IMG/VR virus record: IMGVR_UViG_3300005607_000344
Location: 1 to 47,337 of that record
Origin: a virus
Length of the DNA: 47,337 nucleotides
Strand: one strand, 5' to 3'
In this document: in pieces, positions 4,117 to 36,255 of the stretch
Layout of the letters: each line of letters opens with the position of its first letter
Position numbering within the stretch: position 1 is the stretch's first letter
Translations under genes and position numbers: made by a program
The notes under the pieces: generated by a model
Told to the model about the DNA's origin: nothing
What the model saw: only the letters and a program-made list of their open reading frames with translations
The model's database searches: none

Positions 4117-4149
4117 GAGTTATTCGACCCGGGGGCAGCGCGGAAGGCC

Positions 4150-4945: not shown

Positions 4946-4970
4946 GGAAAGAAAACCGGCTCGCGTTGGG

Positions 4971-6515
4971 TCACTCAGCGGCGGCCAAGGCCGGAAAGAT
5001 CGCCGAGCGAAGGTTGTTCACGATCTCAACGGCGATCTGGCGCGCGAGTATCGGTGGAACGGCATTGCCGATCTGACGAAAAGCAGGGTTCATGGTACCG
5101 GCGAAAACAAATCCGTCTGGGAAGGATTGAAGCCGCGCCGCCTCGCGAACTGTAATTACTCGCGCCTGATCGCTGTCGTAATGGATGTGCGAATATGTGT
5201 CCTTTCCGATATGCGCCGTGAGCGTTCGGACAGGACGGTTGGCCCTGAGCTTCCACCATCGATTTGGAAATTTCGTTGGGTCGTACGGCGGCACCATCGC
5301 CTTGCGCAGCGCCTTCCATTCGGCAGTTCGAGGCCCCAGCCCGCGACGTTTTGCCTTTGAGTGAAACAGACGCAGGGCAATGCGGTGTGCCCGCGGATAC
5401 TCGTCTCCCGGTTCCATCGCCTCGAAGATGCGACTGTCGCGCGGTAGATATCGCAGCACGTGATCGTAGATTTCGTCACCTGCCTCAAATCCAGGCCACG
5501 ATCGCATCGCTTGCGCGTAGGAGGACAGATTCTTCCATGCCGTCCTGCGGTACCGAACCCCCTCAGTAAAGCGTCGCGCTCCTCGTCTCAGCTTGCCTTC
5601 CAGATGAAGAGTGACCGGAGGAAGATCACCAATAGCATCGTGAGCACTCACGGCGTGCGGAAGGTTGTGGTGGCCCGTGTCGGCCTTCACAAAGCCCTGC
5701 GTCTCCAAGAGGTCGATCAGTTTCAGGGCGACCGCACGGGTGCCGGCGTATCCGCGCGGAAGATCGCACTGGTGTGTCGCTGCCGGAAACGTGATGGTTG
5801 CACGGATCTCCTTCCGAAACGCAATCAGGTACACACGATCACGCATCTGCGGTACGCCGTGATGGGCAGCGTTGATGAGTGAGTAGGCGGCGTCGTAGCC
5901 CATGTCGTCGAGGACCTCGACCATTTCCTGCACGACATTGTGGCCACCATAATTAAGGATATCAGGCACATTCTCCAACAGCAGCGCGAGCGGCTTCAGG
6001 TGATCCACGTAATGGAGATAGCGAAGATAAAGATTTCCCCGCGGGTCGACTTTGAAGGCGCGCGGATGGTCGGCGATTTCGCGCAGCTTTGCGCGTCCGA
6101 CACGTGCATAGGCTTGGCAGGGCGGCCCGCCTACTATGATGTCGAAGGCCTCACGGGCACTGCCTAGCCCAAACTCCTCGCAGAGCTCCTCCGGTTCCAT
6201 CGTCGCGACATTGCGCGGCCGGGCATGCAGCTCGACCAGATCCTTTGAGCAGCCCTTGAAGAGATTGACTGCATGCGATCGGGCGGCTAGTTCGTCGGTT
6301 TCCATTGCGGCGACAATTTCGCAACCGGCTCCCTGAAATCCGAGACTCAGACCTCCGCAGCCTGCGAATAGATCAAGGACTCGCAAGCGCGCCTGGGGCT
6401 CACCAAGCCGAGCTAGTTTGCCAGCAATAGTGCGAGGCGATTTCATTGATTGGAATTCCGTCGTAGGCAGCGGCGCGCCGGCGCGCCGCGGCAGGTTACC
6501 AGGTTTGGCGGACAT
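4971..6515 (-). CDS. DNA (cytosine-5-)-methyltransferase
   Basis: The motifs of C5 methyltransferases appear in order: VLDLFAGCGGLSLGF (motif I, 47-60), GGPPCQAYARVG with the nucleophile Cys133 (motif IV), LLLENVPDIL (motif VI), HHGVPQMRDRVYLIAF (motif VIII), a target-recognition region at about 290-430, and the ending RLQSFPDGFVFAGTMNPAFRQIGNAVPP (motifs IX-X). At up to 514 residues it is a full-length enzyme. A start at ATG 6446 (Met24) would put motif I about 22 residues from the N-terminus and is equally likely. The gene is divergent from the restriction nuclease at 6562, and the DUF6615-like gene follows it. It probably protects host DNA in the cluster ending at 15627; the Vsr gene nearby repairs the T:G mismatches that 5-methylcytosine deamination creates. 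The recognition sequence cannot be read from the protein. Confidence 0.93.
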   Translation of the reverse strand: MSAKPGNLPRRAGAPLPTTEFQSMKSPRTIAGKLARLGEPQARLRVLDLFAGCGGLSLGFQGAGCEIVAAMETDELAARSHAVNLFKGCSKDLVELHARPRNVATMEPEELCEEFGLGSAREAFDIIVGGPPCQAYARVGRAKLREIADHPRAFKVDPRGNLYLRYLHYVDHLKPLALLLENVPDILNYGGHNVVQEMVEVLDDMGYDAAYSLINAAHHGVPQMRDRVYLIAFRKEIRATITFPAATHQCDLPRGYAGTRAVALKLIDLLETQGFVKADTGHHNLPHAVSAHDAIGDLPPVTLHLEGKLRRGARRFTEGVRYRRTAWKNLSSYAQAMRSWPGFEAGDEIYDHVLRYLPRDSRIFEAMEPGDEYPRAHRIALRLFHSKAKRRGLGPRTAEWKALRKAMVPPYDPTKFPNRWWKLRANRPVRTLTAHIGKDTYSHIHYDSDQARVITVREAARLQSFPDGFVFAGTMNPAFRQIGNAVPPILARQIAVEIVNNLRSAIFPALAAAE

Positions 6516-6561
6516 TGCCAGGCCAGTGTTTCGTGGGTGATGATGGGCTGGGGAGAGCGCG

Positions 6562-7755
6562 ATGCGTGTGGAGGGAAGAGTCGTTCCATTTGATGCGCTT
6601 GGAACGGCTGATCTTCATGTTGACGCTGTGTACCAGAGCCGCGGGACAAGGACCGGCGATGATCCGCTCCCTCGGCTTCTGAAGGTTGGCAACATGGGCG
6701 GATTTCGGTTTCGTGGAAGGCTGGATGCCCTCGAAATCGTCGCCCTTACATCGAGCCTCAGCGACCCAGACTGGCCCGATGAGGTGGATCGAGAAACCGG
6801 AGTCTTTACTTACTACGGCGACAATAAGCATCCGGGACGAGGTCTCCACGCTACTCCCAGAAATGGCAATGAGCTCCTGCGACGCATCTTTGCCGCCGCA
6901 TACTCGGGAGCCCAGAGCCGGAAGAATGTCCCGCCAGTTTTCGTGTTCGCGAACACGGGTGAGCGGCGAGACGTGATGTTCCTTGGTGTCGCGGTGCCAG
7001 GAACATCGGAACAGCAGGTTGCCGAGGATCTCGTTGCTATTTGGCGGACCGCAAACGGTCTACGATTCCAGAACTACCGCGCCCGGTTCACAATTCTCGA
7101 TATTCCGCTAGTGCAACGTGTCTGGATCGAAGAGGTGATTGCGGGCTCCCCGCATGCGGCACACGCGCCGGCTGCCTGGCGCGAATGGATCGACAAGGGG
7201 CGATATCGGCCGCTGAAATCCACTAGGTCGCTCGAATATCGAACCAAAATCGAGCAGCTTCCTTCGAGTCCGAACGACGTGGCCATTGCTCGCGCTGTGC
7301 ATCAGTATTTCACAGAACGGCCGCACGATTTTGAAAAATGCGCCGCGGTGATCGCGCGTCTGATGTTGCCCGACATCACTGAGCTCGATCTGACCCGTCC
7401 GTCACGCGATGGCGGAAGAGATGCGATAGGTAAGCTCAGACTCGGGCATGGGGTTGGTTCGATTCTTGTCGACTTCGCATTGGAGGCAAAGTGCTACGCA
7501 CTCGAAAATTCGGTCGGGGTCCGGGAAATGTCACGTCTGATATCGAGACTCCGTCATCGGCAGTTCGGCATATTGGTGACAACGAGCTACGTCGATTTGC
7601 AGGCCTATCGAGAGATCAAAGAAGATCAGCACCCCATCATTGTGATCGCTGCGGCTGACATTGTTGGGCTTCTCAGAGTGAACGGACACGCCGACGTTGA
7701 AGCCGTAAAGTCTTGGCTTGATCGCGAGTTTCCCTCCGCGTCTTCCGACGCGTGA
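6562..7755 (+). CDS. SRA-like plus Mrr-type restriction endonuclease
   Basis: The 397-residue protein has two parts. The N-terminal half contains KVGNMGGFRFRG, then SDPDWPDEVDRETG, then FTYYGDNKHPGRGLHATPR at about 82-100. This pattern belongs to the ScoMcrA/AspBHI-like SRA domains that read DNA bases. The C-terminal part is a PD-(D/E)XK nuclease of Mrr type: DLTRPSRDGGRDAIG near 276-290, then LEAKCYALENSVGVREM, with Asp283/Asp287 and Glu308-x-Lys310 as likely metal-binding and catalytic residues. A strong ribosome site (GGGGAGAG) lies just before ATG 6562. It is divergent from the methyltransferase, and its 3' end overlaps the antisense vsr gene by 83 bases. It is likely the DNA-cutting arm of this restriction cluster. 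Relatives such as AspBHI cut modified DNA, which sits oddly with a neighbouring methyltransferase. Its real target state is unknown. Confidence 0.85.
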   Translation: MRVEGRVVPFDALGTADLHVDAVYQSRGTRTGDDPLPRLLKVGNMGGFRFRGRLDALEIVALTSSLSDPDWPDEVDRETGVFTYYGDNKHPGRGLHATPRNGNELLRRIFAAAYSGAQSRKNVPPVFVFANTGERRDVMFLGVAVPGTSEQQVAEDLVAIWRTANGLRFQNYRARFTILDIPLVQRVWIEEVIAGSPHAAHAPAAWREWIDKGRYRPLKSTRSLEYRTKIEQLPSSPNDVAIARAVHQYFTERPHDFEKCAAVIARLMLPDITELDLTRPSRDGGRDAIGKLRLGHGVGSILVDFALEAKCYALENSVGVREMSRLISRLRHRQFGILVTTSYVDLQAYREIKEDQHPIIVIAAADIVGLLRVNGHADVEAVKSWLDREFPSASSDA

Positions 7756-8299
7756 CCGATGAGGCACCTTTGTGAGCGCAACCGGGAGGCCCCAGGCGCT
7801 TGGCCAAACGATCCGCCAAGGCGGCCGGGTCATCCAATTGGCACTCCCAGACAATGATCACCCGCCAACCTGCGGCTTCCAGTTCGCCCCTGGTCCGCCG
7901 GTCGCGCCTCACATTGTCATCGAATTTGCGCTGCCAGAACTCGCGACGTGTCTTCGGCGTGTAGGCCAGTCCGCAGTCGTGTCGGTGCCAGAAGCAGCCA
8001 TGGACAAAGACGGCAACGCGTCTCGATCGAAGGACGATATCTGGCCGACCGGGCAGGTCACGAGCATGCAATCTGAAGCGGTAACCCATCGCATGCAGGA
8101 GTTTCCGCACCACTCTTTCCGGGCCTGTGTCCCGGCCGCGGATGCGGCTCATGAGGGCGCTACGCTTGGCCGGGCTCATGATGTCCCACTGGGGGCTGTT
8201 GGTCTCGCCAGGGAGCGCAACCGCTGGTAAGTTCCCCGCTGCGCCCTCCCTCTGGACTTTTTTGGTTTTCCGCTGTGCCAACGCGCGCCGTACCTCCAT
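7673..8299 (-). CDS. vsr: Very short patch repair endonuclease Vsr
   Basis: The core MSPAKRSALMSRIRGRDTGP, YRFRLHARDLPGRPDIVL, VFVHGCFWHRHDC and REFWQRKFDDNVRRD is the classical Vsr pattern. It includes the catalytic Asp in PDIVL and the histidines of HGCFWHRH. Vsr nicks next to T in T:G mismatches that arise by deamination of 5-methylcytosine, and here belongs with the methyltransferase at 4971-6515. The annotated start at 8299 adds 40 residues that overlap the divergent ATPase gene by 25 bases; ATG 8179 at MSPAKRS is the more typical Vsr start. The C-terminus carries an Arg/Lys-rich extension of about 35 residues running antisense over the end of the restriction endonuclease gene, which is unusual. 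The enzyme identity is secure. Confidence 0.92.
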   Translation of the reverse strand: MEVRRALAQRKTKKVQREGAAGNLPAVALPGETNSPQWDIMSPAKRSALMSRIRGRDTGPERVVRKLLHAMGYRFRLHARDLPGRPDIVLRSRRVAVFVHGCFWHRHDCGLAYTPKTRREFWQRKFDDNVRRDRRTRGELEAAGWRVIIVWECQLDDPAALADRLAKRLGPPGCAHKGASSVTRRKTRRETRDQAKTLRLQRRRVRSL

Positions 8300-9765
8300 C
8301 AGCTTCCGCCCTCGTCGGCTCTCTGAGGGGCGTGGGCTATTCGCTCGAGACTGCCATTGCCGACATCATCGACAACAGCATAGCGGCTCACTCGAAGGTC
8401 ATAGAGATACACTGGGAATGGAATGATGGCGAACCCGTCGCATGGATTCTTGACGACGGCAGCGGCATGGTCGCCGACCGACTTGTCGAGGCCATGAGGT
8501 TCGGCGGCATTGGTCCAGACGCAGCGCGAGTGGATGAAGACCTCGGCCGGTTCGGGCTTGGCTTAAAAACGGCGTCGTTGTCCCAGTGCCGACTGCTGAC
8601 AGTCGCTTCGAAAACATCCGCAGGGCTTGCATGCTTCTCATGGGACATCGATGAGCTTCGTAAGGATGGCGGTGGGTGGAATCTGATCGAGGGCGACGTT
8701 GCTCTTCCTCGGGAAATCCTGGCTCGATTGGAGTCGCGCAAGACAGGCACGCTCGTAGTTTGGCGGAAAGTCGACTTCGGGCGATCGGACGATCGGCCCG
8801 GCTACGAGGCATTTCTGGCCGATCTCGAGCGCGTTGACGCTCATCTTGGAATGGTGTTTCACCGATTCATTGCCGGTGATGCTCGCCACCTGACGATCAC
8901 GCTCAATGGCAGCCGCGTTGAGGCGTGGGACCCCTTCCTTGAAAGCGATGATTCCACGATTAGAAATCCAGAACAACATATCAACGGACCAGGCGGTAGG
9001 GTTCGTGTGCGCGGATTTGTGTTGCCTCACAGAGATCGATTTCGCAATGAGACGGATTTCGAGAAGGCCGGAGGACCTGATGGGTGGACGGCCCAACAGG
9101 GGTTCTATGTGTACCGACAGAAGCGTCTTCTATCGGCGGGCGGATGGCTGGGCCTCGGAGGGAGCCGCGCCTGGACGCGGGATGAACCGAGCCGACTGGC
9201 TCGGATTCGGATCGATATTCCGAACACCGCCGATCATGACTGGCGCATCGACATTCGGAAGGCGATTGCCCGCCCCCCAGATGCAATCCACAAGCCGCTG
9301 CAGCGAATCGCAGAGGACGTACGACGCAAGGCACGTGAGGTCTTCGTTCATCGAGGGCAATATGGCAGTCGCCATAAAACGTCAGACGTATCACGAATTT
9401 GGCAGGTGAACCCTGAGGGTGCGCGGCGACGTTACTCGATACGTCGCGATCATGAGCTCGTCCGCCTGATCAAAGCTCGTCTCGATCCGGTGGGTTCAGG
9501 TCTTCTTGAAGCGCTCATCGATTTGGTTGAGCGAACGGTTCCCGTTGATCGCGTCTGGCTTGATGTCACGGAGCGCGGAGTGCCCGCCGATGACACCGAA
9601 ACGTCGGAGCTCGTCAGTGCAGCGCTCTCGATGGCAAAAATGATGGAAAGAGCGGGAGTTGGCTTCGACGAGGCAGCGGCGCGGATTGCAACCATGGACC
9701 CGTTCGACAAGGTAGAAAATCTCGCGAAGCAGCTGGTCCGCAAGGCGAGAGGCGCAAAACAATGA
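8275..9765 (+). CDS. GHKL (MutL/MORC-type) ATPase of an Mza-like defence system
   Basis: The Bergerat ATP-binding fold is clear at the N-terminus of this 496-residue protein: ETAIADIIDNSIAA with Glu25 and Asn34 (N-box), WILDDGSGM at 58-65 (G1), and GRFGLGLKTASLSQ at 91-104 (G2). The remainder resembles the transducer and C-terminal regions of prokaryotic MutL/MORC-like proteins. Such ATPases are known, from comparative genomics of MutL homologues in restriction systems and from the Mza antiphage system, to sit beside Z1, DUF4420 and AIPR genes, as here. The likely start is GTG 8275, with no good ribosome site; the gene overlaps the next by four bases (ATGA). It probably acts as an ATP-driven clamp on DNA, an inference from the fold. 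Confidence 0.88.
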   Translation: MPTRAVPPSASALVGSLRGVGYSLETAIADIIDNSIAAHSKVIEIHWEWNDGEPVAWILDDGSGMVADRLVEAMRFGGIGPDAARVDEDLGRFGLGLKTASLSQCRLLTVASKTSAGLACFSWDIDELRKDGGGWNLIEGDVALPREILARLESRKTGTLVVWRKVDFGRSDDRPGYEAFLADLERVDAHLGMVFHRFIAGDARHLTITLNGSRVEAWDPFLESDDSTIRNPEQHINGPGGRVRVRGFVLPHRDRFRNETDFEKAGGPDGWTAQQGFYVYRQKRLLSAGGWLGLGGSRAWTRDEPSRLARIRIDIPNTADHDWRIDIRKAIARPPDAIHKPLQRIAEDVRRKAREVFVHRGQYGSRHKTSDVSRIWQVNPEGARRRYSIRRDHELVRLIKARLDPVGSGLLEALIDLVERTVPVDRVWLDVTERGVPADDTETSELVSAALSMAKMMERAGVGFDEAAARIATMDPFDKVENLAKQLVRKARGAKQ

Positions 9766-12530
9766 ATTCCGTGGAAGACACAATTGCTTCAATGGCCTTG
9801 ATGGCAATTCGGCAGCGCCATCCGACCACGGCTATTGGCAGGGAGGAAATCGAAACGGCAGTTCGCGATTGTGCGCGCCTGCTTGCACAGAACATCGCCG
9901 CGGATCGAGTCAACGCCATTGTCCAGGAATTGGAGACTAGGCTTGTAGTCAAGGTAGGTCGACCAACAAAGCTCGTCGACGAACGAGGCCACGTTCCCTG
10001 GTATTTCGGGGAGCGAAAGGATGGGCGGCGTTTTTTCAAGCGGTACGTCGATTTCCTTTTGCAGGATCAGAGTTGGCCGCCAGCGGCTATCGATGCGATT
10101 GATCTGTCCACGGATCTGATCATGGAGCAGATCGAGGACCCGAACCGCGATGGACCTTGGGATCGTCGCGGCTTGGTTGTCGGTCACGTTCAGTTCGGCA
10201 AGACGGCCAACTATGCGGGACTTGCGAACAAGGCCGCGGATGCCGGCTACAAGCTGATTATCGTTCTTGCCGGTATGCACAATGCCTTGCGGCAGCAGAC
10301 ACAGCGGCGGCTGGATCGCGACATTCTTGGCTACAATACTACTCCTGCGAATGGAGGTCAGGGTTTTGCACGAATTGGCGTAGGTGACTTTGACCGCAAC
10401 ATCCATGCCGAGCATCTGACAACGCAGGCGGCGAATGGGGATTTCAATCGAGCATTTGCAGATAATCTCGGGATCGGAGTTCAGCAGAGACCGGTGCTTC
10501 TGGTCGTGAAGAAGAACGCTCGGATTCTCGAAAACCTCAACAACTGGGTCACTGAGGTTTTAGCGCCACGCGAAGATACCGATACCCGTCCGCTTCTGTT
10601 GATCGACGATGAGGCCGACCAAGCCTCGGTTGATACGGGCCAGCAGGAATTTGATGCCAACGAAACTCCTGACCCGGACTATGAGCCGAAGCGGATCAAT
10701 GGTCAGATACGACGCCTGCTTGTCTCGTTCTCGCGTTCTGCCTACGTGGCATACACGGCTACTCCGTTCGCCAATATCCTCATTCACGATGCCGCGGCGG
10801 CGGAAGAGTACGGAGAGGATATTTTCCCCCGTAGCTTTATTATCAATCTCCCATCGCCATCCAACTATATCGGACCCGGCCTCTTGTTTGGCATAGACGG
10901 TGATGGGGGCGGGGCCGCTGAAGAGCCTCTCGATGTAGTTCGAAACGTAGATCAGGACGACGAAGGATGGATTGCAACGGATCATAAAAAGGGTTTTGTG
11001 CCTCGATATGAAGGCGAGGATCGCATTCCGCCTTCGCTCGAAGACGCCATTTTGAGTTTTGTTCTCGCGTGCGCCGCGCGCGCGGCGCGCGGCCAAGCCA
11101 ATGCTCACAACTCAATGCTGATTCACGTCTCTCGATTCAAGGACGTACATCAGGCGGTATTTCGGCAAGTGGATGAGTGGGTAGCTGATCTCAAACGCAA
11201 GCTCAAATACCGAACGGGCAGGAGCGGGCTGGTCGATAGGCTACGCGAAATGTGGGAACGCGACTTCGAACCAACATCGGCAGAAATCCGCGCCACGCGG
11301 ATTGGAGAGAACCTGCCAACTACTTCGTGGGCTGCGGTGGAGCGCGAGCTGACAAACGCTGCCGATAAGATAAAACCGCAGGTGGTGAACAGCGAAATTC
11401 GAGATGCGATCGATTACGACGGAAATGCCACGCAGGGATTGAGCGTCATCGCGATCGGTGGTGATAAGCTTTCGCGTGGACTCACGCTGGAAGGACTCAC
11501 TGTCAGTTATTTTCTGCGTGCGTCGAAGATGTACGACAGTCTCATGCAAATGGGCCGGTGGTTTGGATATCGCCCCGGTTATGTCGACCTCTGCCGCCTC
11601 TATATGACACCCGATCTGCAGCTGTGGTTCCGCCATGTGGCGACGGCGGCGGAGGAATTGCGGGAGCGTCTCGACCACATGGCAATGATTGGGGCGACTC
11701 CTGAACAATATGGCCTCCGAATTCAGTCGCACGACATCCTGCTGGTGACCGCCCCGAACAAGATGAGGCATTCTCGGGAATTCCAGGTTTCGTTTCAGGG
11801 AGAGGCCAAGATACAGACAGTTTTCTTCAATGATGAAACGAGCAATTATCGTAATGCCACCGCGATTACGGGTTTTCTGGACAGGATCGGACAACCAGTC
11901 GAACTGGCGGGCACCACAGGGCGGATGGACTGCAAGTCATTCGAAGGCCGCCGCGTGTGGAAAGGCGTTGCGGGATCTGAAGTTGCGAATCTCCTCGGCT
12001 CTCTTCTATTTCCTGAAGAAGCGCGTGACGTTAATGCCGGCCGTCTCAGTTCGTACATTCGGGAGTTGCTCGCCGCCAATGAACTGACCGATTGGACGAT
12101 TGCCGTTCCCAATGGCAGCGGTGAGCTGCTTTCGGTGAATGGTTGGAATTTCAAGACCATTGAACGCGCTCCGCTTCCACGAGGCGAAGCGTCTGGTCGA
12201 TATGTTGTAAAAACCGTTCTGTCTCCCAGAGACGAAGCCATCGATCTTGACCGGTTCGAGTACGATCGTGCATTGGCGGAAACAAACAGAAAGCGAATTG
12301 CGGTGGGTAAGGATGCGTCGAACACGCCCGACGGGCCAGAGATACGAAAGATCAGAGGTGAAAATCCGAAGCGCGCGTTGCTTCTGCTCTATCCACTATC
12401 GCCTAAGAACGCCGGTGTTGATTTCACCGTACCGATTTTCGGGGTGGTCGTAAGTTTCCCCGATTCCCAAAGCGGCCGATCGGTGCGCTACCGGTTCAAT
12501 ACTGTGGAACAGCGCCTCGAACTCGTATGA
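9762..12530 (+). CDS. Z1-domain helicase-like ATPase
   Basis: The 922-residue protein has a superfamily-2-like core. It shows a Walker A motif GHVQFGKT at 141-148, a Walker B motif LLLIDDEADQAS at 278-289, YTATPFANIL (motif III-like), and a later segment with GGDKLSRGLTLEGLTVSYFL followed by MQMGRWFGYRPGYVDLCRLY (motif V/VI region). The latter block is the hallmark of the Z1 domain. Z1 proteins are found almost exclusively beside MutL/MORC-like ATPases in restriction-type gene clusters. Start and stop overlap both neighbours by four bases, so the four genes 8275-15627 form one translationally coupled operon. Expected role: ATP-dependent movement on, or remodelling of, target DNA. This is an inference, since the biochemistry of Z1 is little known. 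Confidence 0.9.
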   Translation: MNSVEDTIASMALMAIRQRHPTTAIGREEIETAVRDCARLLAQNIAADRVNAIVQELETRLVVKVGRPTKLVDERGHVPWYFGERKDGRRFFKRYVDFLLQDQSWPPAAIDAIDLSTDLIMEQIEDPNRDGPWDRRGLVVGHVQFGKTANYAGLANKAADAGYKLIIVLAGMHNALRQQTQRRLDRDILGYNTTPANGGQGFARIGVGDFDRNIHAEHLTTQAANGDFNRAFADNLGIGVQQRPVLLVVKKNARILENLNNWVTEVLAPREDTDTRPLLLIDDEADQASVDTGQQEFDANETPDPDYEPKRINGQIRRLLVSFSRSAYVAYTATPFANILIHDAAAAEEYGEDIFPRSFIINLPSPSNYIGPGLLFGIDGDGGGAAEEPLDVVRNVDQDDEGWIATDHKKGFVPRYEGEDRIPPSLEDAILSFVLACAARAARGQANAHNSMLIHVSRFKDVHQAVFRQVDEWVADLKRKLKYRTGRSGLVDRLREMWERDFEPTSAEIRATRIGENLPTTSWAAVERELTNAADKIKPQVVNSEIRDAIDYDGNATQGLSVIAIGGDKLSRGLTLEGLTVSYFLRASKMYDSLMQMGRWFGYRPGYVDLCRLYMTPDLQLWFRHVATAAEELRERLDHMAMIGATPEQYGLRIQSHDILLVTAPNKMRHSREFQVSFQGEAKIQTVFFNDETSNYRNATAITGFLDRIGQPVELAGTTGRMDCKSFEGRRVWKGVAGSEVANLLGSLLFPEEARDVNAGRLSSYIRELLAANELTDWTIAVPNGSGELLSVNGWNFKTIERAPLPRGEASGRYVVKTVLSPRDEAIDLDRFEYDRALAETNRKRIAVGKDASNTPDGPEIRKIRGENPKRALLLLYPLSPKNAGVDFTVPIFGVVVSFPDSQSGRSVRYRFNTVEQRLELV

Positions 12531-13543
12531 CACCTCTCCGCGCTGAGCTGACCTCCAAATGGGCAGAAGCCGCACTTGCAGAGCGCGGCGACCGCGAATG
12601 GAGAGGCGTAGCGCTCTCTGTTCCGGCGGTCGTCCGGTTTCTGGCTGGCATCCGCGAGCCTGATGGTCATATCGCTCTGCTAATTGAGGCGCCTCTGGCA
12701 ACAGCGCCGGCGACGATGTTGCGGGTCAACGCCGATGGCGTAAGCCTCACCGATCAGCGCGAGCCTCACGAGAAACTATTCCGCGTCGCAGTCACGCTCG
12801 AACGCGAATCTCTGCGCGACGTATTTGAGGTGCTCGCCACAGATATAGTGGAGGTAGTGCGGCCAGCCACAACTTCCGGTCAAGCCATTGAAACTGCGGT
12901 CTCGCGCCTGGAGGCTTGGCAGGCCTTTCTGCGGTCCGGCCGACGGGGCCTGTCGAGAGAAGAGCAAATCGGACTGTTGGGAGAACTCGCCGTTTTGCAA
13001 CTGTTGGCCAGAGAAATTGGGTATGACCACGCCGTGGAAGCTTGGCTTGGTCCACTAGATGGGATTCACGACTTCAGCCGTTCAGGGACTGCGATAGAGG
13101 TCAAGGGCGTCGCCGGCGTCGGTAGCTTCTTGCGCATATCGCACCTGGATCAGCTTGAGTCGAAGGGGCTGTCAGTCCTGGCAATTGCCCGTCCGCGCTT
13201 TCGGGAGGGGCCGGAGGGTCAGTCGATATCGGCCTTCGTCAATGCAATTCGCGAAGACATCGATCGGGCCGCGCCCACGGCTAGGCGGGGCTTCGACGAC
13301 AGACTGCTAAGGGCGGGCTTCATGGACGGGGACAGACAACCACCTGACTCTGCGGTCTTTTTTCTGGATAATATGTACGGTTTTGAAGTGCGTAGCGACT
13401 TTCCGCGGCTGACAGGTTCGTCCGTACCAGCCGAAATCGTGGATGCATCCTATACGCTGGACGAGCGAACCCTTGCTCGATTTCGGATCGAAGCCGATGG
13501 TCTTGCCAGGTTCGCAAAGATGATGGACGGGCCTAACGCATGA
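12527..13543 (+). CDS. DUF4420-type PD-(D/E)XK protein of the Mza-like operon
   Basis: The protein is 338 residues long. The central part reads EEQIGLLGELAVLQLLAREIG, then GPLDGIHDFSRSGTAIEVKGVAG. The Glu of LLGEL, Asp of IHDF and the E-x-K of IEVKG make a plausible PD-(D/E)XK metal site, typical of PD-(D/E)XK motif (DUF4420) proteins. It overlaps the Z1 gene upstream and the AIPR gene downstream by four bases each. In Mza-type clusters this is the DUF member. Nuclease activity has been suggested from the fold, but the sequence does not show whether it cuts DNA or only binds it. Confidence 0.85.
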   Translation: MTPLRAELTSKWAEAALAERGDREWRGVALSVPAVVRFLAGIREPDGHIALLIEAPLATAPATMLRVNADGVSLTDQREPHEKLFRVAVTLERESLRDVFEVLATDIVEVVRPATTSGQAIETAVSRLEAWQAFLRSGRRGLSREEQIGLLGELAVLQLLAREIGYDHAVEAWLGPLDGIHDFSRSGTAIEVKGVAGVGSFLRISHLDQLESKGLSVLAIARPRFREGPEGQSISAFVNAIREDIDRAAPTARRGFDDRLLRAGFMDGDRQPPDSAVFFLDNMYGFEVRSDFPRLTGSSVPAEIVDASYTLDERTLARFRIEADGLARFAKMMDGPNA

Positions 13544-15627
13544 GTGACGAAGCTGTCGAGCTGTTTGCGCGCGAGCTTGCCGCGGAGGTAGATGATGCAG
13601 TCCACTCCGGAACCGGCAGCATCTACAGCGAAGAGGAATTTACGCGCATCGTCCTTGATCGCCTGGGTGATGAAGGCGCCGTTGAAAACCCGATTCTGCT
13701 TTGGCAGGAGGGACATTTCGCCCGAACGAAATACAAGATCACGGGCTATTCCATCCCGGACGACGAGGAACGACTTCTACTCGTGACTACTGTTCATACT
13801 GGAGAGTTGCCGCCGCGCGCCCTGACGCGAGACGAAATCCTCGGTGCCTTTCAGCAGGCAGTCAAGTTTTATGAATGCAGCTGCAAAGGACTCCACACCA
13901 AGATCGAGCCGTCCAACACGGATGCGAGCGAGCTTGCTCGCCGCATCTATGAAGCGCGCGAGCGGATCAGTGTCCTCCGTGTTGTATTGATTTCAGATGG
14001 ACTGACTGGCTTGAAATCTGTCGACATCAAGGAGGCGTTCGACGGAACGCGCGTTATTGTCGATCTTTTCGGCATCGAACGGCTGCACCGCATACTCGGA
14101 CAAGGATTGCGACGCGACGACATAGTCGTCGAGTTCGATACTGAACTAGGCGCACCTCTCCCGTGCCTCAAAGCATCAAGAAGTGGCGACGATTACGACG
14201 CCTATCTGGCCTCAATTCCCGGCGCGCTGCTCGCGGACATTTATGAAAAATATGGTACCCGGCTTCTCGAATTGAACGTTCGGGCATTTCTCGGATTGAG
14301 GGGTCGCAAAAGCGTTAATGCTGGCCTGCGCGCAACGATCCGCGAACTCCCGCATCGCTTTCTTGCATATAATAATGGCATCGTTGCAACAGTCGATGCA
14401 ATGGATATCAAAGACCTTGGACAAGGGCACGTCGGCATCAAATCGGTGCGCGGCCTGCAGATCGTGAACGGCGGACAAACGACGGCCAGCCTGCATCGCG
14501 CCAAGCGCCAGGATGGAGCGAATCTGGATGGCATCGCCGTACCCGCCAAAATCATTCGCGTGGGCGGCGCAGATCTCGATGAGATGGTTGCAGCTGTCTC
14601 GCGATCAGCGAACAGTCAGAATACCGTTCAACCGGCGGACTTCTCCGCCAATGATCCGTTCCACGTTGCGGTGGAGAAGTTGGCCAACAACACGTGGCTC
14701 GCTGACGGCAAGGGGCGCTGGTTTTATGAGCGGGCTCGTGGCAGCTACGGCGCTGCCGAGCTGAAGGCGTCGTTTGCGGCGGCTCAAAAGCGACGGTTTA
14801 CACACGAAACCCCCAAAGAACGCCGCTTCTCGAAGACAGACCTTGCAAAGTATCTGAATGCCTGGGACGGGCTACCACATCAGGTCAGCTTCGGTAACCA
14901 GAAGAACTTCCAGTTTTTCATGCAGTCACTGAAGGACGAACATCCAGACGGGTTTGAGCCAGATGTGGGCTGGTACAAGGCATTTATTGCAAAAGCCATT
15001 CTCTTCCGGACCGTTCAATCAATCGTGCGAGCCCAAAAATTTGCTGCGTATCAGGCCAACATCGTGGCCTATACAACGGCGTACCTCTCGTGGCGCACCG
15101 GCGCGCGTATCGACTTCGACCTCATATGGTCACGACAGGTGATCTCACCCGAACTGAAAACCGTACTTGAGAAATGGGTGGGTGGAATTGATGCGGCGCT
15201 CCGAAAGACTGCGGGCAGTCGTATGGTCAGTGAATGGGCAAAGAAGGTGGAATGCCGCGATGCCCTGCGTGAAATATCCCTCGATCTTCCCGACGCTCTG
15301 CCGCCCGAGTTGTCGAGCCAGACTGCGTTCGCGAAAAGCGGCAATGGCCGGGCGCCGATTCGCAACGACGGGCTGACACGTGGAGATCTGGAACTAATTG
15401 ATAAGTGTCGCGCGATCAATGCCGAGACTTGGCTCAGGGTCGCACAATGGGGGACACAATCGAAGAAGCTGCATTGGAAAGTTGCCGGGATTGCGAGAAC
15501 GATGGGCGAGTATGCAATCGGAGGATGGGAGCGCAGCCCTTCGGCGAAACAGGCAAAATGGGCGATGGAGGCTTACAGCGCGGCTGAAAAGGAACAGGTC
15601 TTTGCTGACGACAAGGCGTCTCGCTAA
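13540..15627 (+). CDS. AIPR-family protein of the Mza-like operon
   Basis: The 695-residue protein contains the AIPR (abortive infection phage resistance) signature VRGLQIVNGGQTTASLHRAK near 305-325, preceded by LPHRFLAYNNGIVATVDAM and followed by FSANDPFHVAVEKLANN. It is the last gene of the operon with the GHKL ATPase, Z1 and DUF4420 genes and starts by a four-base overlap. The AIPR family is widespread in phage-resistance loci. Its C-terminus, with helical segments between 480 and 690, has no motif I recognise. The molecular role is unknown; the association with antiphage function comes from the family and neighbours. Confidence 0.87.
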   Translation: MSDEAVELFARELAAEVDDAVHSGTGSIYSEEEFTRIVLDRLGDEGAVENPILLWQEGHFARTKYKITGYSIPDDEERLLLVTTVHTGELPPRALTRDEILGAFQQAVKFYECSCKGLHTKIEPSNTDASELARRIYEARERISVLRVVLISDGLTGLKSVDIKEAFDGTRVIVDLFGIERLHRILGQGLRRDDIVVEFDTELGAPLPCLKASRSGDDYDAYLASIPGALLADIYEKYGTRLLELNVRAFLGLRGRKSVNAGLRATIRELPHRFLAYNNGIVATVDAMDIKDLGQGHVGIKSVRGLQIVNGGQTTASLHRAKRQDGANLDGIAVPAKIIRVGGADLDEMVAAVSRSANSQNTVQPADFSANDPFHVAVEKLANNTWLADGKGRWFYERARGSYGAAELKASFAAAQKRRFTHETPKERRFSKTDLAKYLNAWDGLPHQVSFGNQKNFQFFMQSLKDEHPDGFEPDVGWYKAFIAKAILFRTVQSIVRAQKFAAYQANIVAYTTAYLSWRTGARIDFDLIWSRQVISPELKTVLEKWVGGIDAALRKTAGSRMVSEWAKKVECRDALREISLDLPDALPPELSSQTAFAKSGNGRAPIRNDGLTRGDLELIDKCRAINAETWLRVAQWGTQSKKLHWKVAGIARTMGEYAIGGWERSPSAKQAKWAMEAYSAAEKEQVFADDKASR

Positions 15628-15746: not shown

Positions 15747-16190
15747 GTGGTCGACTGGGACGCGAGATTCATGGCTTTGGCCCAGTTTGTAGGAGACTGG
15801 AGCAAGGATCGCAGCACCAAAGTTGGTTGCGTCATCGTGGGGCCCAACAATGAAATTCGGGCGATCGGCTATAACGGATTTCCACGTGGAATTGCGGACG
15901 ACGCGGAAGAGAGGCACTCAAGGCCTGCGAAATATTTGTGGACCGAGCATGCCGAACGCAATGCCATCTATCATGCAGCGCTCATCGGCGTTGCCCTTAA
16001 GGGCTGTCGCATGTATTTGCCCTGGTTCCCTTGCATGGATTGCGCGAGAGCAATCGTCCAAAGCGGGCTCTCCGAACTGATCGCGTTTAGTCCAGAGCTC
16101 GGTCACCCGAAATGGGGAAAAGACTTTCAGGCTAGTATGGCACTGCTACGCGAAGCTGGAGTTCACGTGCGACTCGTATCTCCCAAATGA
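15747..16190 (+). CDS. Deoxycytidylate (dCMP) deaminase-like protein
   Basis: The 147-residue protein has a zinc-dependent cytidine deaminase fold: STKVGCVIVGPNNEIRAIGYNGFPRG, then TEHAERNAIYHAA (zinc-binding His68 and proton-shuttling Glu70), then WFPCMDCARAIVQSG (zinc ligands Cys96 and Cys99). The GYNGFPRG loop and length fit the dCMP deaminase family, which turns dCMP into dUMP. Start is GTG 15747 after a strong ribosome site (AAGGGGGAA at 15735-15743). It stands alone, 119 bases after the AIPR gene, and ends 10 bases from the end of the convergent STAND gene. Beside a TS-like gene with a cytosine-nucleotide signature it may be part of the same nucleotide-handling system, but an independent housekeeping or cargo gene is equally possible. 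Confidence 0.85.
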   Translation: MVDWDARFMALAQFVGDWSKDRSTKVGCVIVGPNNEIRAIGYNGFPRGIADDAEERHSRPAKYLWTEHAERNAIYHAALIGVALKGCRMYLPWFPCMDCARAIVQSGLSELIAFSPELGHPKWGKDFQASMALLREAGVHVRLVSPK

Positions 16191-16200
16191 ACACGAGCCG

Positions 16201-18186
16201 CTAGTGCGCGCCAGCGAGAGCCGGCCCCTGATAGCGAATTTCGGCATCAGCAATGTATCTTCGCCAGTAGTCGCGGCTTTCGGGCGCCTCTGCTCGCTGG
16301 AAAAACGTTCGTCCAATATCGGTGACGGTATCGCTCCAGCCTGCTGGAGCAGCATCGGATGTGACCACGAGCGCGCGTGCGATTTCATCCCGCACTTTGG
16401 GCTGTGCCCGCAAATCGTCAACGCGATTCTTTATGGCCTGGACGATCCGGCCCCTCAGTTGTGCATCGCCGCGGCAGGCGAGCTCCGCCAGCGAGCGCGC
16501 GGCGCCATACCTCACCGATCCATCGGAATCATGATCAAGCGACTGAAGCAGGGTATCAAAATTTGAGGTGGATGGAAATGCGCCCAACAAATGGACAATG
16601 CGCCACCGCTGCGTGGGAGGCGCATTATGTAACGCATTGCGCAACATCTCAAGTTGCTCCTCAGTGAGAGCCATGCGCCGGGCTACGTTTGCCATTGTCC
16701 AGCCGATCACCGAATCATCTGCGAGGAGCGTTTGAATGTCCTCGTCAGTCAGATTCTGATCTGACGGGCGAGTGAAGAGCGCTTGCCAACGCGTAAACCA
16801 TGCCGCCTGCGAGTTAACTGCCGCGACCGATCGCAGTACCTGTTGAAAGGACATCGCGTCCTTAAAGGGTTGTGATCCAGCCAGCCTGATTAGCAGCAGC
16901 GCATCATTCGCTCGCTGGCGCGTTGCTTCTACGAGGTCGAAGCGTTTTTCTGCCAACATAGCAAAGATCACAATCCGCATTTCTGCGCTGCAAGGTACGG
17001 CGTCCGATGACACGCTGGAAAGCGCGTATCCAGCAGCGTACAAATTCCAGTCGTACAGGCGCCGCAGGAAATCGTCCGCCTTCTCCTGACCAAGTTGCTC
17101 GAATACCAGTGCCAGCGGATCGAACGAGCTCTGGTCAAGGCTTATGACATTGAGATTGTCCGATGTCCAAAAATCTTGGTTCTGTCGAGCCATATGACGA
17201 GACGCAAGGTAATCATGTAGCAAATGATGACTGAAGTGCGCCTCGCCGCTCTCTGTGAGAATAATCACTCCCGAGTTTTGAAGTCGATTGGTAACGTGTT
17301 CGCCAGCGATAATTCTGAATTGCTCGATTGAGAATGAGCGAGATTTATTGAGATAGGCCTGAAAAGCTGCGATCGCTGCTGAGTTGAGGTCCTGCTCAGT
17401 CAAGTTGGCGTGTGAAATTAGATACCGTTCATGCGTTCGCGCGCCGCTCACCGATACATCTTCTTGATGAATTGCCGCATTGAGAAAAAATGGCAAATCT
17501 AGCGGTGCAACGCTGGTCTGCCCGGATAGTCGGTTACCGGCATACCGTGCAATCAGGCTGGCGGAAAGCGGCAATACAAGGCCGAGCGCCCATCTGCTCA
17601 GCGCGGGCAGTTCGCGGCGGACGAGCCTATCGGCCACGATCACAGACGTTAGTATCTGATCGCGCACAAACTCGTCCAAAGAACGCAGAACTTGCGAACC
17701 AACCGAGGAGGCAATTTCATTCAAGCCGTCGACGATCAAAACCTTTGAAGCTGTTGGCGGTACCCAGTCGAGATCGATTGCAGTTGTTTGTGGGCGCGCA
17801 AAGCGCTCGATCAGAAAGGCAGACCCGTAGGCGATATCTTTAGAAACTATTGCATCCCAATCAGCATAATCAGATTGTCTCCAGTCCTTGAGATCAATAA
17901 GCACGGGCAATACGCCGCGCTCGGCGCTAGCTCGCATTAGACGGAATAACAGCTGCGTCTTGCCGCCGCCACCACGCCCAACCAGTACCACGCGTCCCTG
18001 CCGCAAGGCTCGCGCCAGAACTTCGCCTTCAGACGTAATGTCAAGATCTCCTCGAAACATGCGATCATAGTCGGAGGCCCAGCCGATCTCCAACTCGAAC
18101 GGTGGATCGGCAAATGCAAGAGAGGCAATCACGCCGTTTGCAGCAGACCTCAGAATTTCCAGTTGGTGCTCGGGTGTCCTTTGCAT
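16201..18186 (-). CDS. STAND/NACHT-like ATPase with HEAT-like C-terminus
   Basis: The 661-residue protein has a P-loop VVLVGRGGGGKTQLLFRL at about 66-83, a Walker B segment KVLIVDGLNEI at 148-158, and a sensor-like VIVADRLVRREL, as in NACHT/STAND ATPases. A winged-helix-like region around 290-340 includes HFSHHLLHDYLASRHMA, typical of NACHT proteins. The C-terminal half is helical, with HEAT-like units such as LDHDSDGSVRYGAARSLAEL, likely the ligand sensor. There is no N-terminal effector domain; an effector may instead be supplied in trans by the nucleoside-phosphorylase-family gene 21 bases upstream. The three genes TS-like, PNP-like and STAND read in one direction as an operon. Role inferred: oligomerising switch that senses phage and triggers the partner enzymes. 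Confidence 0.78.
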   Translation of the reverse strand: MQRTPEHQLEILRSAANGVIASLAFADPPFELEIGWASDYDRMFRGDLDITSEGEVLARALRQGRVVLVGRGGGGKTQLLFRLMRASAERGVLPVLIDLKDWRQSDYADWDAIVSKDIAYGSAFLIERFARPQTTAIDLDWVPPTASKVLIVDGLNEIASSVGSQVLRSLDEFVRDQILTSVIVADRLVRRELPALSRWALGLVLPLSASLIARYAGNRLSGQTSVAPLDLPFFLNAAIHQEDVSVSGARTHERYLISHANLTEQDLNSAAIAAFQAYLNKSRSFSIEQFRIIAGEHVTNRLQNSGVIILTESGEAHFSHHLLHDYLASRHMARQNQDFWTSDNLNVISLDQSSFDPLALVFEQLGQEKADDFLRRLYDWNLYAAGYALSSVSSDAVPCSAEMRIVIFAMLAEKRFDLVEATRQRANDALLLIRLAGSQPFKDAMSFQQVLRSVAAVNSQAAWFTRWQALFTRPSDQNLTDEDIQTLLADDSVIGWTMANVARRMALTEEQLEMLRNALHNAPPTQRWRIVHLLGAFPSTSNFDTLLQSLDHDSDGSVRYGAARSLAELACRGDAQLRGRIVQAIKNRVDDLRAQPKVRDEIARALVVTSDAAPAGWSDTVTDIGRTFFQRAEAPESRDYWRRYIADAEIRYQGPALAGAH

Positions 18187-18207: not shown

Positions 18208-19062
18208 TTAAGCATTCGCATCTGTTGTCGGGAGGCGCCGAATAAATTCGCGCGTGACGACCGCTGCTGCGTGGGCTGCATACACTTTCCATTGCGCACG
18301 AGTCGCATCATTGCCCTCCACACCAACAAGGTCGGAAATTCCCCGAATCACCGAGTATAGAGGGTTGTACCAAAAGGAGGTCCGCCGGGCGCACACACCT
18401 CTGGCCATGCCAATCGATTCCATGTCGACGGCAAGTGCTTTGTCGAATGGCTTCAATAGTTCCGTTTGAACCGGATTGTTCAGGCCACCCATCACTTTTT
18501 CGGCTGACACAATCTGGCCGATGTGAATCCGAGAGTTGTGTGCTGCTGGGGGCTGCTTCGTAATCGCATCTGCGATCCTGAATGTTTTTTGAATCGGGAA
18601 AGAGATGGTCCGTCCAAGATGCACAGAGGGATGATCGACAGGATATTGTCGCCAGAACATTGTCGCGCCATCGATCTTCAAGAAATCGACATATGCGACC
18701 GTATTTGCAATCACAACATCACCGAGATGAATGTTTTCGCGAGGTCTGCCGTTGTCGCACATTCCACCGGCAATGCCGACCAACAAAAGAACTTGGGGGC
18801 GGAGATCTTCAATGATGTGACCAACTTCTTCTCCTGAGGGGAGGTTGGTGCGGTCCGTGCATTTCGAAACCACCACATCCCAGTCACCACTATCTGGCGC
18901 CTCACTCACGAAATAGGGCGAACTCCCAATGTCATTGTGTGTTCCAAGAACGTCTCTGACCTCATCGAATTCTTCATCGATTACAGTGACGACCGCGACG
19001 CGCGCTCGGCCAAGCCGACCGCGCGGCGGAGAGTAAGCGCGCTCCTCGGACGGAGGCGCCAT
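18208..19062 (-). CDS. PNP/UDP-family nucleosidase or phosphorylase, candidate effector
   Basis: The 284-residue protein matches the PNP_UDP_1 family. After a short basic leader comes VAVVTVIDEEFDEV, then LLLVGIAGGMCDN at 92-104, NIHLGDVVIANTVAY at 110-124, LAVDMESIGMARG at 210-222 (the Met-Glu of DMES binds ribose) and VIRGISDLVGVEG with the general-acid Asp244. All the key residues of MTA/AMP-nucleosidase-like enzymes are kept, so it should cleave the glycosidic bond of a purine or related nucleoside or nucleotide. In antiphage systems such as Detocs and PNP-NACHT proteins, this fold serves as a cell-killing effector that destroys nucleotides. Its position between a TS-like gene (9 bases upstream) and a STAND ATPase supports a conflict role. 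The actual substrate is unknown. Confidence 0.83.
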   Translation of the reverse strand: MAPPSEERAYSPPRGRLGRARVAVVTVIDEEFDEVRDVLGTHNDIGSSPYFVSEAPDSGDWDVVVSKCTDRTNLPSGEEVGHIIEDLRPQVLLLVGIAGGMCDNGRPRENIHLGDVVIANTVAYVDFLKIDGATMFWRQYPVDHPSVHLGRTISFPIQKTFRIADAITKQPPAAHNSRIHIGQIVSAEKVMGGLNNPVQTELLKPFDKALAVDMESIGMARGVCARRTSFWYNPLYSVIRGISDLVGVEGNDATRAQWKVYAAHAAAVVTREFIRRLPTTDANA

Positions 19063-19071
19063 CGTCAGTAA

Positions 19072-19908
19072 TCATCCCAATTCGGCATAGCTTCTAATCC
19101 AGCGGATCACCGCACTCTCGGCGGAGTCGTTGTATATGTCGCGAATCACCTGGGTAGGATCAGAAATAGCCGGCATGCGAATCGCACTCACCTCTTCGTC
19201 CTGGGCTCTTTTTCGAAGGGCTTCCAAATGCGGCTTGTTCCTCTCATATATCTGCGTGAAGGTGCAGAGTACGGTTGTGGTCCCGACCGCAAGGAACCGG
19301 CCAAGTCTTGTGCCCAAGTCGACGGCTACCAGCTCCGTAAGAAATGAGAAGAATGCCATGTCGTATGGCAGTCCCGAATACAAATCCTCGCTACGCGAAA
19401 GAATGCAGCAGTGTAGCGTGTCCTGGCGTATGTAGAACTGTAGCGAAATCGCGCAGGGAAAATCGCTGTTGGTTATGTCTTTATGATACGCTTGGTTAAT
19501 GTTGATCACGGCTCGCCGGCTTGACGCGTTCCGGGACAGAACGGCCAGAACCCATTCGTACTGAGTCATGCCGTGGACACGCTCGTAGAACACATAGTGT
19601 CCATAGTTGGACCAGATGAGTCCATTTGAGTCGGAATATTGCGCCCAACGTCTGCTCGCATGAAGTAGGCCGTCGGCAGCTCTCAGGCTCCCACGAAAGA
19701 ACGCAAGCAGTTCCCTGCACATATATCTTTCCGACGCAGGATGGCGAAGATGAAATACGCGATCGTTGGAGTCGGTCAGGGTGTACGCCACGTTGTACGA
19801 TTGAATTGCAGAGCCCGCTCGGGCTCCTATGTGCTCTCCAGTTTGCAAAACATGATCTATTCCCGCCAAAACAAGCTGGTCGACAGAAGCCGCCGATATT
19901 ACGTGCAT
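19072..19908 (-). CDS. Thymidylate-synthase-like protein with a cytosine-nucleotide signature
   Basis: The 278-residue protein can be aligned with E. coli ThyA by motif. Arg30 in IGARAGSA matches Arg21, Glu66 in CRELLAFFRG matches Glu58, SRRAVIN at 130-136 matches the phosphate-binding Arg126/127, and DFPCAISLQFYI gives the nucleophile Cys152 (146). SRSEDLYSGLPYDMAFF gives Arg172, Asp175 and Gly179 (166, 169, 173). At the dUMP-selecting Asn177 position it has Asp183, as in dCMP hydroxymethylases. The HLY motif (His207/Tyr209), which contacts the sugar, is not conserved. The protein therefore probably modifies or binds a cytosine nucleotide using a folate cofactor, rather than making dTMP. ATG 19908 is preferred over GTG 19920 because a G-rich ribosome site precedes it. 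First gene of the three-gene operon. Fold is well supported; substrate is inference. Confidence 0.78.
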   Translation of the reverse strand: MHVISAASVDQLVLAGIDHVLQTGEHIGARAGSAIQSYNVAYTLTDSNDRVFHLRHPASERYMCRELLAFFRGSLRAADGLLHASRRWAQYSDSNGLIWSNYGHYVFYERVHGMTQYEWVLAVLSRNASSRRAVININQAYHKDITNSDFPCAISLQFYIRQDTLHCCILSRSEDLYSGLPYDMAFFSFLTELVAVDLGTRLGRFLAVGTTTVLCTFTQIYERNKPHLEALRKRAQDEEVSAIRMPAISDPTQVIRDIYNDSAESAVIRWIRSYAELG

Positions 19909-20028
19909 CACTGCCCCCACGACCCCGCGATTTGCCCCTCCAAGGCTCTCAACAATTACCAGGGGTTGTGGGGGTCGTCGATGGCGGATTAATCACCTAT
20001 CAGTGCGTCTCGGCTCGGCCTTTACGGT

Positions 20029-33433: not shown

Positions 33434-35128
33434 ATGGGCACGATCGTTCTTCTCGATCTGATGGGCGGAGTAGCATTGCTGCTGTGGGGCCTGCATATGG
33501 TCCAGAGCGGCATCTTGCGGGCGTTCGGCTCCGACTTACGTCGCCTATTGTCGAAGGCGTTTGGAAACCGGATGGCGGCGTTTGCTGCCGGTCTCGGCCT
33601 AACCGCGCTGCTTCAGAGTAGCACGGCGACGGGCTTGATGACTGCGTCGTTTGCCGCTGAAGGCGTCGTAGGCCTCGTTCCTGCGCTCGCTATCATGCTC
33701 GGCGCGAACGTTGGGACGACTCTCATCGTCCAAGTACTCTCCTTCAATGTGACAGCGGCCGCACCGGTCCTGTTCGTCCTCGGGCTTGTCGCATTCCGCA
33801 GCGGCGCCCGTACGCGGTTGAAGGATATGGGAAGGGTTTTCATCGGCCTTGGCCTGATGTTGCTCGCCCTTCACATATTGATCGATACTCTGGCACCCGC
33901 TGAAAATGCGCCTAGTGTTCGAGCCCTACTCAGTGCAATCACGGGTGACCCAATCCTGTGCGTTTTAATCGCAGCAGGACTGACCTGGGCGGCACATTCG
34001 AGCGTGGCGACAGTCCTGCTGATTATGTCGCTCGCTTACTCAAACTTTGTTTCGCCCCCCGCAGCGTTGGCATTAGTGCTTGGCGCTAACTTGGGCAGCG
34101 CCATCAATCCCGTATTGGAGGGCGGCAGGCGCGATGATTTCGCGAGCTACAGGCTGCCCGTGGGCAACCTGATTAATCGCGCCGCAGGGGTGGCTCTGGT
34201 CCTGCCGTTCCTACAACAAATCACGAACTTATTCCTTGGTTTCCAGCCGAACATGGCGAAGATGCCAGCCGAATTTCACATCGCCTTCAATGTGATTTTG
34301 GCAATAATTTTTATCGGATTACTCGATCCGTTGGCTTGGCTACTCAATAAGATAATTCCGGCAAGCGCACCCAAATTGGATGGTTTGGCGCCACGCCACC
34401 TTGACGAAAGTGCTCTGGAGACCCCCTCGCTCGCTCTGGCAGATGCGGCTCGCGAAACGCTGCATATGGGCGACCTCGTCGAAACCATGCTACGGAAGGT
34501 TATGACCGCGCTAATGATGGACGACCGCGCCCTCGTCGCTGAGGTCTCTCGCATGGATAACGCCGTCGATAAACTTGATGAGGCGATCAAGCTCTACGTG
34601 ACCAAGCTAACCCGCGGGAGCCTCGACGAACGAGAAGCTCGTCGGGCGACGGAAATCATTTCTTTTTCGATCAACTTAGAGCATATCGGCGATATCATCG
34701 ACAAGAATCTGAGCGAGCTTGCAGCAAAGAAGATCAAACGAAAGCTTAGCTTCTCTGTCGAAGGAGCTACCGAGCTCACGGCGTTTCACAAGAGAATTAT
34801 GGACAATCTGAAGATCGCGTTCGGCGTGTTCATGTCCAGCGATGTCAGCGAAGCGCGCAAGCTCATCTCCGAGAAAGCACAGCTGCGGAATATCGAACTC
34901 TCGGCGGCGGAAATGCATCTTGAAAGATTGCGCGAAGGTCGCCCCGAGTCCCTGGAGAGCACTTCACTTCACCTCGACGTATTGCGCGACCTCAAACGCA
35001 TTCATTCCCACATCTGCTCGGTTGCCTATCCTGTCCTTGAAGAGGCTGGCGAATTGCCAGCGGCTCGGATCGCCGAGAGCGATCCGATTACCCTGGCCGC
35101 CCCGCCTGTCAGGCCATCTACACAATAG
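33434..35128 (+). CDS. Na/Pi cotransporter family protein with PhoU-like C-terminus
   Basis: The 564-residue membrane protein has the two inverted repeat signatures of the family: QSSTATGLMTASF at 61-73 and HSSVATVLLIMSL at 188-200. Each lies in a hydrophobic domain of several membrane segments (MGTIVLLDLMGGVALLLWGL at the start). After about residue 320 comes a cytoplasmic helical domain with PhoU-like features (SISFSINLEHIGDIIDKNL-type and FHKRIMDNLKIAFGVFMSSD). It moves phosphate with sodium across the inner membrane, in or out depending on family member. The gene is lower in GC than the surrounding phage genes and lies on the opposite strand, inside the inserted cassette. A purine-rich AGGAGGGG at 33375-33382 is too far away to serve this start. 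Confidence 0.88.
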   Translation: MGTIVLLDLMGGVALLLWGLHMVQSGILRAFGSDLRRLLSKAFGNRMAAFAAGLGLTALLQSSTATGLMTASFAAEGVVGLVPALAIMLGANVGTTLIVQVLSFNVTAAAPVLFVLGLVAFRSGARTRLKDMGRVFIGLGLMLLALHILIDTLAPAENAPSVRALLSAITGDPILCVLIAAGLTWAAHSSVATVLLIMSLAYSNFVSPPAALALVLGANLGSAINPVLEGGRRDDFASYRLPVGNLINRAAGVALVLPFLQQITNLFLGFQPNMAKMPAEFHIAFNVILAIIFIGLLDPLAWLLNKIIPASAPKLDGLAPRHLDESALETPSLALADAARETLHMGDLVETMLRKVMTALMMDDRALVAEVSRMDNAVDKLDEAIKLYVTKLTRGSLDEREARRATEIISFSINLEHIGDIIDKNLSELAAKKIKRKLSFSVEGATELTAFHKRIMDNLKIAFGVFMSSDVSEARKLISEKAQLRNIELSAAEMHLERLREGRPESLESTSLHLDVLRDLKRIHSHICSVAYPVLEEAGELPAARIAESDPITLAAPPVRPSTQ

Positions 35129-35198
35129 TGGCGTTGGGTTTTCATTTCCTACTAACCCGAGATTGGCTATGCTGACGTCGACAGTCCCGACGGAGCGG

Positions 35199-35762: not shown

Positions 35763-35773
35763 GATGCACGTAA

Positions 35774-36103: not shown

Positions 36104-36194
36104 TTTGGTCTCCCGAGTTAATGCCGGCCGCACCAAAGGGTCGGCGATGACGGGGACCATGCCTCAAGGGTCCTGACGGCCACCTGTTGATCCA

Positions 36195-36241: not shown

Positions 36242-36255
36242 TGATGTGGCATGTC

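Follow-up and report, generated by a model that had tools for sequence, protein, structure and literature searches.

A predicted dCMP 5-hydroxymethylase of a bacterial thymidylate synthase-like clade beside PNP and NACHT genes in a prophage-linked defence island

The window analysed here, a stretch of 47,337 nucleotides of the IMG/VR virus record IMGVR_UViG_3300005607_000344, carries a thymidylate synthase (TS)-like gene whose product, judged from its residues, is probably a dCMP hydroxymethylase. The broader statement, that this enzyme belongs to a bacterial clade not devoted to phage DNA and, in defence, most likely has an accessory part in acting on the deoxycytidylate pool, is held as probable and with less assurance, because its functional half is hedged: a role together with the adjoining PNP–NACHT set is put forward tentatively, as a possibility. 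The operon context and the relatives of the gene, both left out of the first-pass annotation, bear on this role. The results below on the fold, the active site, membership of the clade, the layout of the operon and the recurrent PNP–NACHT–deaminase set were obtained by computation.

The TS-like ORF runs on the minus strand from ATG 19908 to the stop at 19072, and an alternative GTG start at 19920 would add four amino acids. Its product matched the Pfam TS family (Table 1) and fell well short of the NCBIfam equivalog cut-offs that define true thymidylate synthases. A pseudogene reading was rejected, as the invariant positions are intact and the frame is free of stops. The AlphaFold model (pLDDT 92.9) had the CMP hydroxymethylase MilA as its best PDB fold match; T4 dCMP hydroxymethylase ranked high as well, in company with many TS folds. 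A profile from four family members retrieved T4 dCMP hydroxymethylase as the best PDB sequence. The substrate is not discriminated by the fold alone; the residues discriminate it.

Table 1. Features of the window discussed in the text, with their coordinates, strand and supporting evidence or context
Feature	Position	Strand	Evidence or context
TS-fold protein, predicted dCMP 5-hydroxymethylase, 278 aa	19072..19908	-	Pfam Thymidylat_synt PF00303, E=8e-22; key residues; AlphaFold model
Ser100-Asn-Tyr102, water-positioning pair equivalent to T4 Ser94/Tyr96	19603..19611	-	PMC6400193 criterion, alignment
Asp149-Phe-Pro-Cys152, hydroxymethylase Asp at Cys-3 and nucleophile	19453..19464	-	PMC6400193 criterion, alignment
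Asp183 codon (ThyA Asn177 / T4 dCH Asp179 / MilA Asp186 position)	19360..19362	-	alignment
Gln219 in place of ThyA His207, subfamily-invariant	19252..19254	-	alignment
PNP/MTAN-like nucleosidase	18208..19062	-	PF01048, E=6e-9; 9 bases after TS stop
NACHT/STAND-like P-loop ATPase with HEAT repeats	16201..18186	-	Walker A 70-77, Walker B VLIVDG 149-154
CMP/dCMP deaminase-like protein	15747..16190	+	PF00383, E=2e-20; matches to PDB 7fh4 and human dCMP deaminase
MzaBCDE	8275-15627		defence island
Vsr	7673-8299	-	defence island
AspBHI homologue	6562-7755		E=1.5e-126 to AspBHI
C5 methylase	4971-6515	-	defence island
SIR2-APAZ and short pAgo	854-4116		defence island

Key residues were compared in an alignment of 33 proteins, including E. 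coli ThyA, T4 gp42, and phage and bacterial relatives. The first-pass annotation had placed Asp183 at the position of ThyA Asn177, and this placement was upheld: the residue aligned with Asn177 and with Asp179 of T4 dCMP hydroxymethylase, HMMER alignments to crystal-structure sequences agreed, and the spacing from Cys152 to Arg172, Asp175, Gly179 and Asp183 (20, 23, 27 and 31) is identical to that from ThyA Cys146 to Arg166, Asp169, Gly173 and Asn177. The catalytic Glu66 and Cys152 are present, as had been stated, and Arg131/132, Arg172, Ser173 and Asp175 are all retained. The GLPYDM block is invariant in all 14 subfamily members compared (14/14), so the Asp switch is not a product of chance or decay.

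A ternary-complex study of T4 gp42 defined Ser94, Tyr96, Asp145 and Asp179 as hydroxymethylase residues, the signature being an acidic residue at Cys-3, a Ser two positions before a Tyr and, for cytosine, Asp179; the enzyme is inactivated by D145N, by Y96F and by D179N (PMC6400193). The TS-like protein has the acidic residue (Asp or Glu in the T4 type, Leu in TS) as Asp149, and the Ser-x-Tyr water-positioning motif as Ser100-Asn-Tyr102. By sequence, it carries the complete published signature, of which Ser100-x-Tyr102 and Asp149 had gone unmentioned. The clade-wide Asn-to-Asp switch and the gp42-type residues Ser100, Tyr102, Asp149 and Asp183 together give good backing to the specificity for a cytosine nucleotide proposed earlier. 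The proposal that the sugar-contacting His207/Tyr209 pair is replaced was correct for His, which is Gln219 here, and incorrect for Tyr, which is conserved as Tyr221; the T4-type His216/Tyr218 pair contacting the 3'-OH is therefore incomplete. Within the residue table, Gln219 is found throughout the subfamily and nowhere else, whereas the His that binds the 3'-OH is present in every other TS or hydroxymethylase row examined. Because Gln replaces this His, the substrate of the protein may differ. The His216/Tyr218 contacts are conserved in known enzymes but are not reported to discriminate hydroxymethylases.

The protein belongs to a rare clade of 18 rows with 41%–50% identity. Two E. coli plasmid backbones and one Salmonella plasmid carry such relatives; others come from Edwardsiella, Erwinia, Ewingella, Dickeya, Trabulsiella and Thermoactinomycetaceae, from a Staskawiczbacteria bin and Dependentiae-like bins, and from a small number of viral contigs. 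The subfamily was monophyletic (support 100/99), and ThyA was split off by a branch of 100/99. The T4 branch was long and its exact position weak (87/32); a sister relation to gp42 is therefore not claimed. A separate ordinary TS is encoded in three of the genomes checked for a second copy, those of Erwinia, Edwardsiella and Croceifilum; in the Staskawiczbacteria bin the second match was weak, and in the Dependentiae bin there was none. In a sample of 398 Pseudomonadota genomes, only one TS relative was recovered, in the genome used as the centre, indicating that the family is rare. No close relatives were found in viral contigs scanned with the single TS-like, PNP-like or NACHT protein. The reaction itself is already known; this bacterial subfamily is distinguished by a use that is probably not for DNA, by the invariant Gln in place of His and by its new partners.

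The prophage structural genes of the window, from terminase to endolysin, occupy the minus strand between 47 kb and about 21 kb and have a GC3 of about 0.78–0.85, and the terminase is 64% identical to those of Rhodobacter phages. Genes for a Na/Pi cotransporter, a response regulator and a histidine kinase are present inside this region on the plus strand (33434–38611). A dense defence island spans 854–15627, and the GC3 of the defence genes left of about 20 kb is about 0.55–0.64 (0.72 in the SIR2 gene). The TS operon (about 0.55–0.61) resembles the defence island, unlike the prophage structural genes. The TS-like gene is the first of this tight operon, followed by the PNP-like and NACHT genes with gaps of 9 and 21 bases. 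In the PNP-like protein, the EE(29-30), Glu217 and Asp246 motifs look retained when compared by eye with MTAN; its model, folded without an alignment, reached a pLDDT of 35 and was not used.

The PNP and NACHT homologues co-occurred in the same genomes in genome searches. In three alphaproteobacterial genomes (L050, L051 and L054), genes for PNP, NACHT and dCMP deaminase follow one another in this order on one strand, adjoining C5-methylase and Vsr genes in two of them; the deaminase-like gene, convergent with the NACHT gene in the window, is there downstream of it on the same strand. A TS-like gene is absent from all three loci and is joined to PNP–NACHT in the window only. The set is thus recurrent, and the TS-like gene is an addition in the window, possibly an accessory member of a nucleotide-targeting defence locus. 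PADLOC system models gave no match to the NACHT protein or to the PNP–NACHT–deaminase set, no homologues of the NACHT protein were found in plasmids or phages, and a NACHT profile scan of viral contigs gave no matches.

The relatives of the TS-like gene have other neighbours. In eleven loci, it is accompanied by a DUF84 NTPase and a TRZ/ATZ-type amidohydrolase. Eight of these (L002, L003, L004, L007, L009, L012, L014 and L016; E. coli/Salmonella plasmids, Edwardsiella, Erwinia, Trabulsiella, Dickeya and Ewingella) form a putative biosynthetic cluster of the dCMP-hydroxymethylase-like gene, the NTPase, the amidohydrolase, a PurN-like formyltransferase (missing in Salmonella, L004) and an MFS exporter, with a HAD phosphatase in three. 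In the Thermoactinomycetaceae loci (L010, L011 and L013), the additional genes are for ATP-grasp ligases, MFS and a LOG-type protein. Other relatives adjoin a gene for a NudG-like cytosine-nucleotide Nudix hydrolase: six Dependentiae-like and viral members (L005, L006, L008, L018, L019 and L020) are each paired with it, and their strongly hydrophobic, signal-peptide-like N-termini suggest an exported TS-like enzyme. Genes for an hmdCMP kinase, a glucosyltransferase or a dCTPase were not recognised in the core-subfamily neighbourhoods examined. Since no T4-type hmC-DNA genes were recognised beside core members, the core clade probably makes 5-hydroxymethyl-dCMP as a metabolite. The more distant ATCCB and VFW, the closest relatives in phage records (28%–31%), adjoin beta-glucosyltransferases, consistent with the same reaction being used there in DNA modification. 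Another TS-like lineage, on Arthrobacter, Rhizobium and Leptospira plasmids (L042, L043 and L044; three phyla), is accompanied by a hypothetical gene and an ImmA/IrrE-type protein and is possibly a separate TS-containing mobile module.

The neighbourhoods of the enterobacterial and Gram-positive relatives are putative biosynthetic clusters and not defence loci, which counts against a defence role. In the main rival reading, the enzyme would be a dCMP-based hydroxymethylase for a nucleoside-type natural product, as with MilA/BcmA, and the window copy a horizontally acquired stray standing outside the PNP–NACHT defence. The eleven loci with NTPase and amidohydrolase, mostly with formyltransferase and exporter, point in this direction, as do the ligases, MFS and LOG-type glycosidase of the Thermoactinomycetaceae relatives and the occurrence of the PNP–NACHT–deaminase set without TS. 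However, the partner genes of the biosynthetic clusters are all absent from the window, and the 9-base gap between the TS-like and PNP genes is operon-like. We judge a stray copy rather unlikely.

A second alternative concerns the sugar. MilA is selective for CMP over dCMP through Ala176 and Lys133, and Ser and Arg at these positions give dCMP (PMC5175136). The fold match to MilA and the changed sugar-contact residue Gln219 would accord with a MilA-like CMP (ribose) hydroxymethylase, but these ribose determinants are absent, being Ser173 and Arg131 as in dCMP/dUMP enzymes. A CMP enzyme was rejected on this ground and appears improbable. The altered sugar specificity suggested earlier likewise found no support, given Ser173/Arg131 and the retained Tyr209 equivalent. 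The predicted substrate is therefore dCMP, not CMP or dUMP, and Asp149, Ser100/Tyr102 and Asp183 together with Ser173/Arg131 lead to a predicted conversion of dCMP to 5-hydroxymethyl-dCMP.

Less probable still is the entry of hydroxymethyl-dCMP into DNA as 5hmC, either as phage-style protection or as a mark on replicating DNA for the AspBHI-type endonuclease of the island. The AspBHI enzyme class cuts 5mC/5hmC DNA, the window encodes a close homologue (Table 1), the chemistry is that of T4 gp42, and the closest phage-record relatives adjoin beta-glucosyltransferases. Against this, neither the window, as far as it was annotated, nor the core neighbourhoods examined yielded a recognised hmdCMP kinase, dCTPase or glucosyltransferase, hm-dCTP would be destroyed by the Nudix partners, and the AspBHI-like gene is common to a different neighbourhood with C5-methylase and Vsr. 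An ordinary dUMP thymidylate synthase with an unusual but neutral Asp, for which the TS fold and the many TS matches at a similar fold score could speak, was rejected on residues and is highly improbable, as ThyA Leu143, His147 and Asn177 are replaced clade-wide by Asp149, Ala153 and Asp183 and the published N-to-D effect concerns pyrimidine choice.

For the preferred reading, a dCMP hydroxymethylase, Cys152 would attack C6 of dCMP, Asp183 would read and protonate cytosine N3, and methylene-tetrahydrofolate would donate the one-carbon unit. Asp149 with Ser100/Tyr102 would then steer water, not hydride, onto the methylene, yielding 5-hydroxymethyl-dCMP. The clade would put this reaction to nucleotide or small-molecule chemistry, not to modified phage DNA. 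We infer the substrate, the product and any defence role of the protein. In the prophage-linked defence island, the enzyme might act on the deoxycytidylate pool with the PNP-like nucleosidase, the NACHT sensor and the adjacent dCMP deaminase; most cautiously, it would be an accessory drawing on or modifying the dCMP pool while deaminase and nucleosidase attack the same pools. A bolder version, to which we give little credence, is an immune system in which hydroxymethylase, deaminase and nucleosidase, gated by NACHT, convert the deoxycytidylate pool during infection to a nucleotide that is modified or toxic, possibly bringing 5hmC into phage DNA as a target for the AspBHI-like nuclease. If true, such a NACHT-gated nucleotide-chemistry system would represent an immune use of hydroxymethylated nucleotides.

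To our knowledge, dCMP hydroxymethylases have been described mainly from phages, which use them to conceal their DNA from the host. If a bacterial clade has the full signature and, in the neighbourhoods examined, no partners for DNA modification, hydroxymethylase chemistry would be seen to serve metabolites. The settings would include a putative biosynthetic cluster, carried by E. coli/Salmonella plasmids and by enterobacteria associated with plants and fish, as well as at least one defence island. With three enzymes at one locus that all appear to target nucleotides, the hydroxymethylase, the dCMP deaminase and the nucleosidase, under a NACHT sensor, the window offers a clear and testable case for nucleotide-pool immunity.

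Compared with known systems, the TS-like protein shares with T4 gp42 the fold, the Glu, the Ser-x-Tyr, the Asp at Cys-3, the Cys, Arg and Ser, the Asp at the Asn177 place and the Tyr218 equivalent. It differs in having Gln for His216 and in an identity of only about 20%–23%, and the genes of the window and clade adjoin nucleosidase/NACHT/deaminase or metabolic genes, not hmC-DNA genes. With MilA and BcmA, the CMP hydroxymethylases of mildiomycin and bacimethrin, it has in common the predicted cytosine nucleotide substrate, the Asp place, a probable use in small-molecule pathways and the best PDB fold, whereas it lacks Ala176/Lys133 and the window lacks a nucleoside antibiotic cluster of the MilB type. 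E. coli ThyA is of the same superfamily, with the same Cys/Glu/Arg/Asp core and spacing, but its Asn177, Leu143, His147 and His207 are all replaced. Our literature search for TS with NACHT/PNP defence returned only a TS domain in DefensePredictor, where a validated anti-phage system contains a TS-domain protein; in a figure legend of that study, TS is named alongside dNMP kinase, 5hmdU kinase and NMAD domains (PMC13092281). Finally, the Detocs PNP effector and the STAND/NACHT systems likewise use a PNP-superfamily nucleosidase and a NACHT ATPase, which here stand in one operon; the window differs in encoding them as separate genes, together with a dCMP deaminase and the TS-like enzyme.
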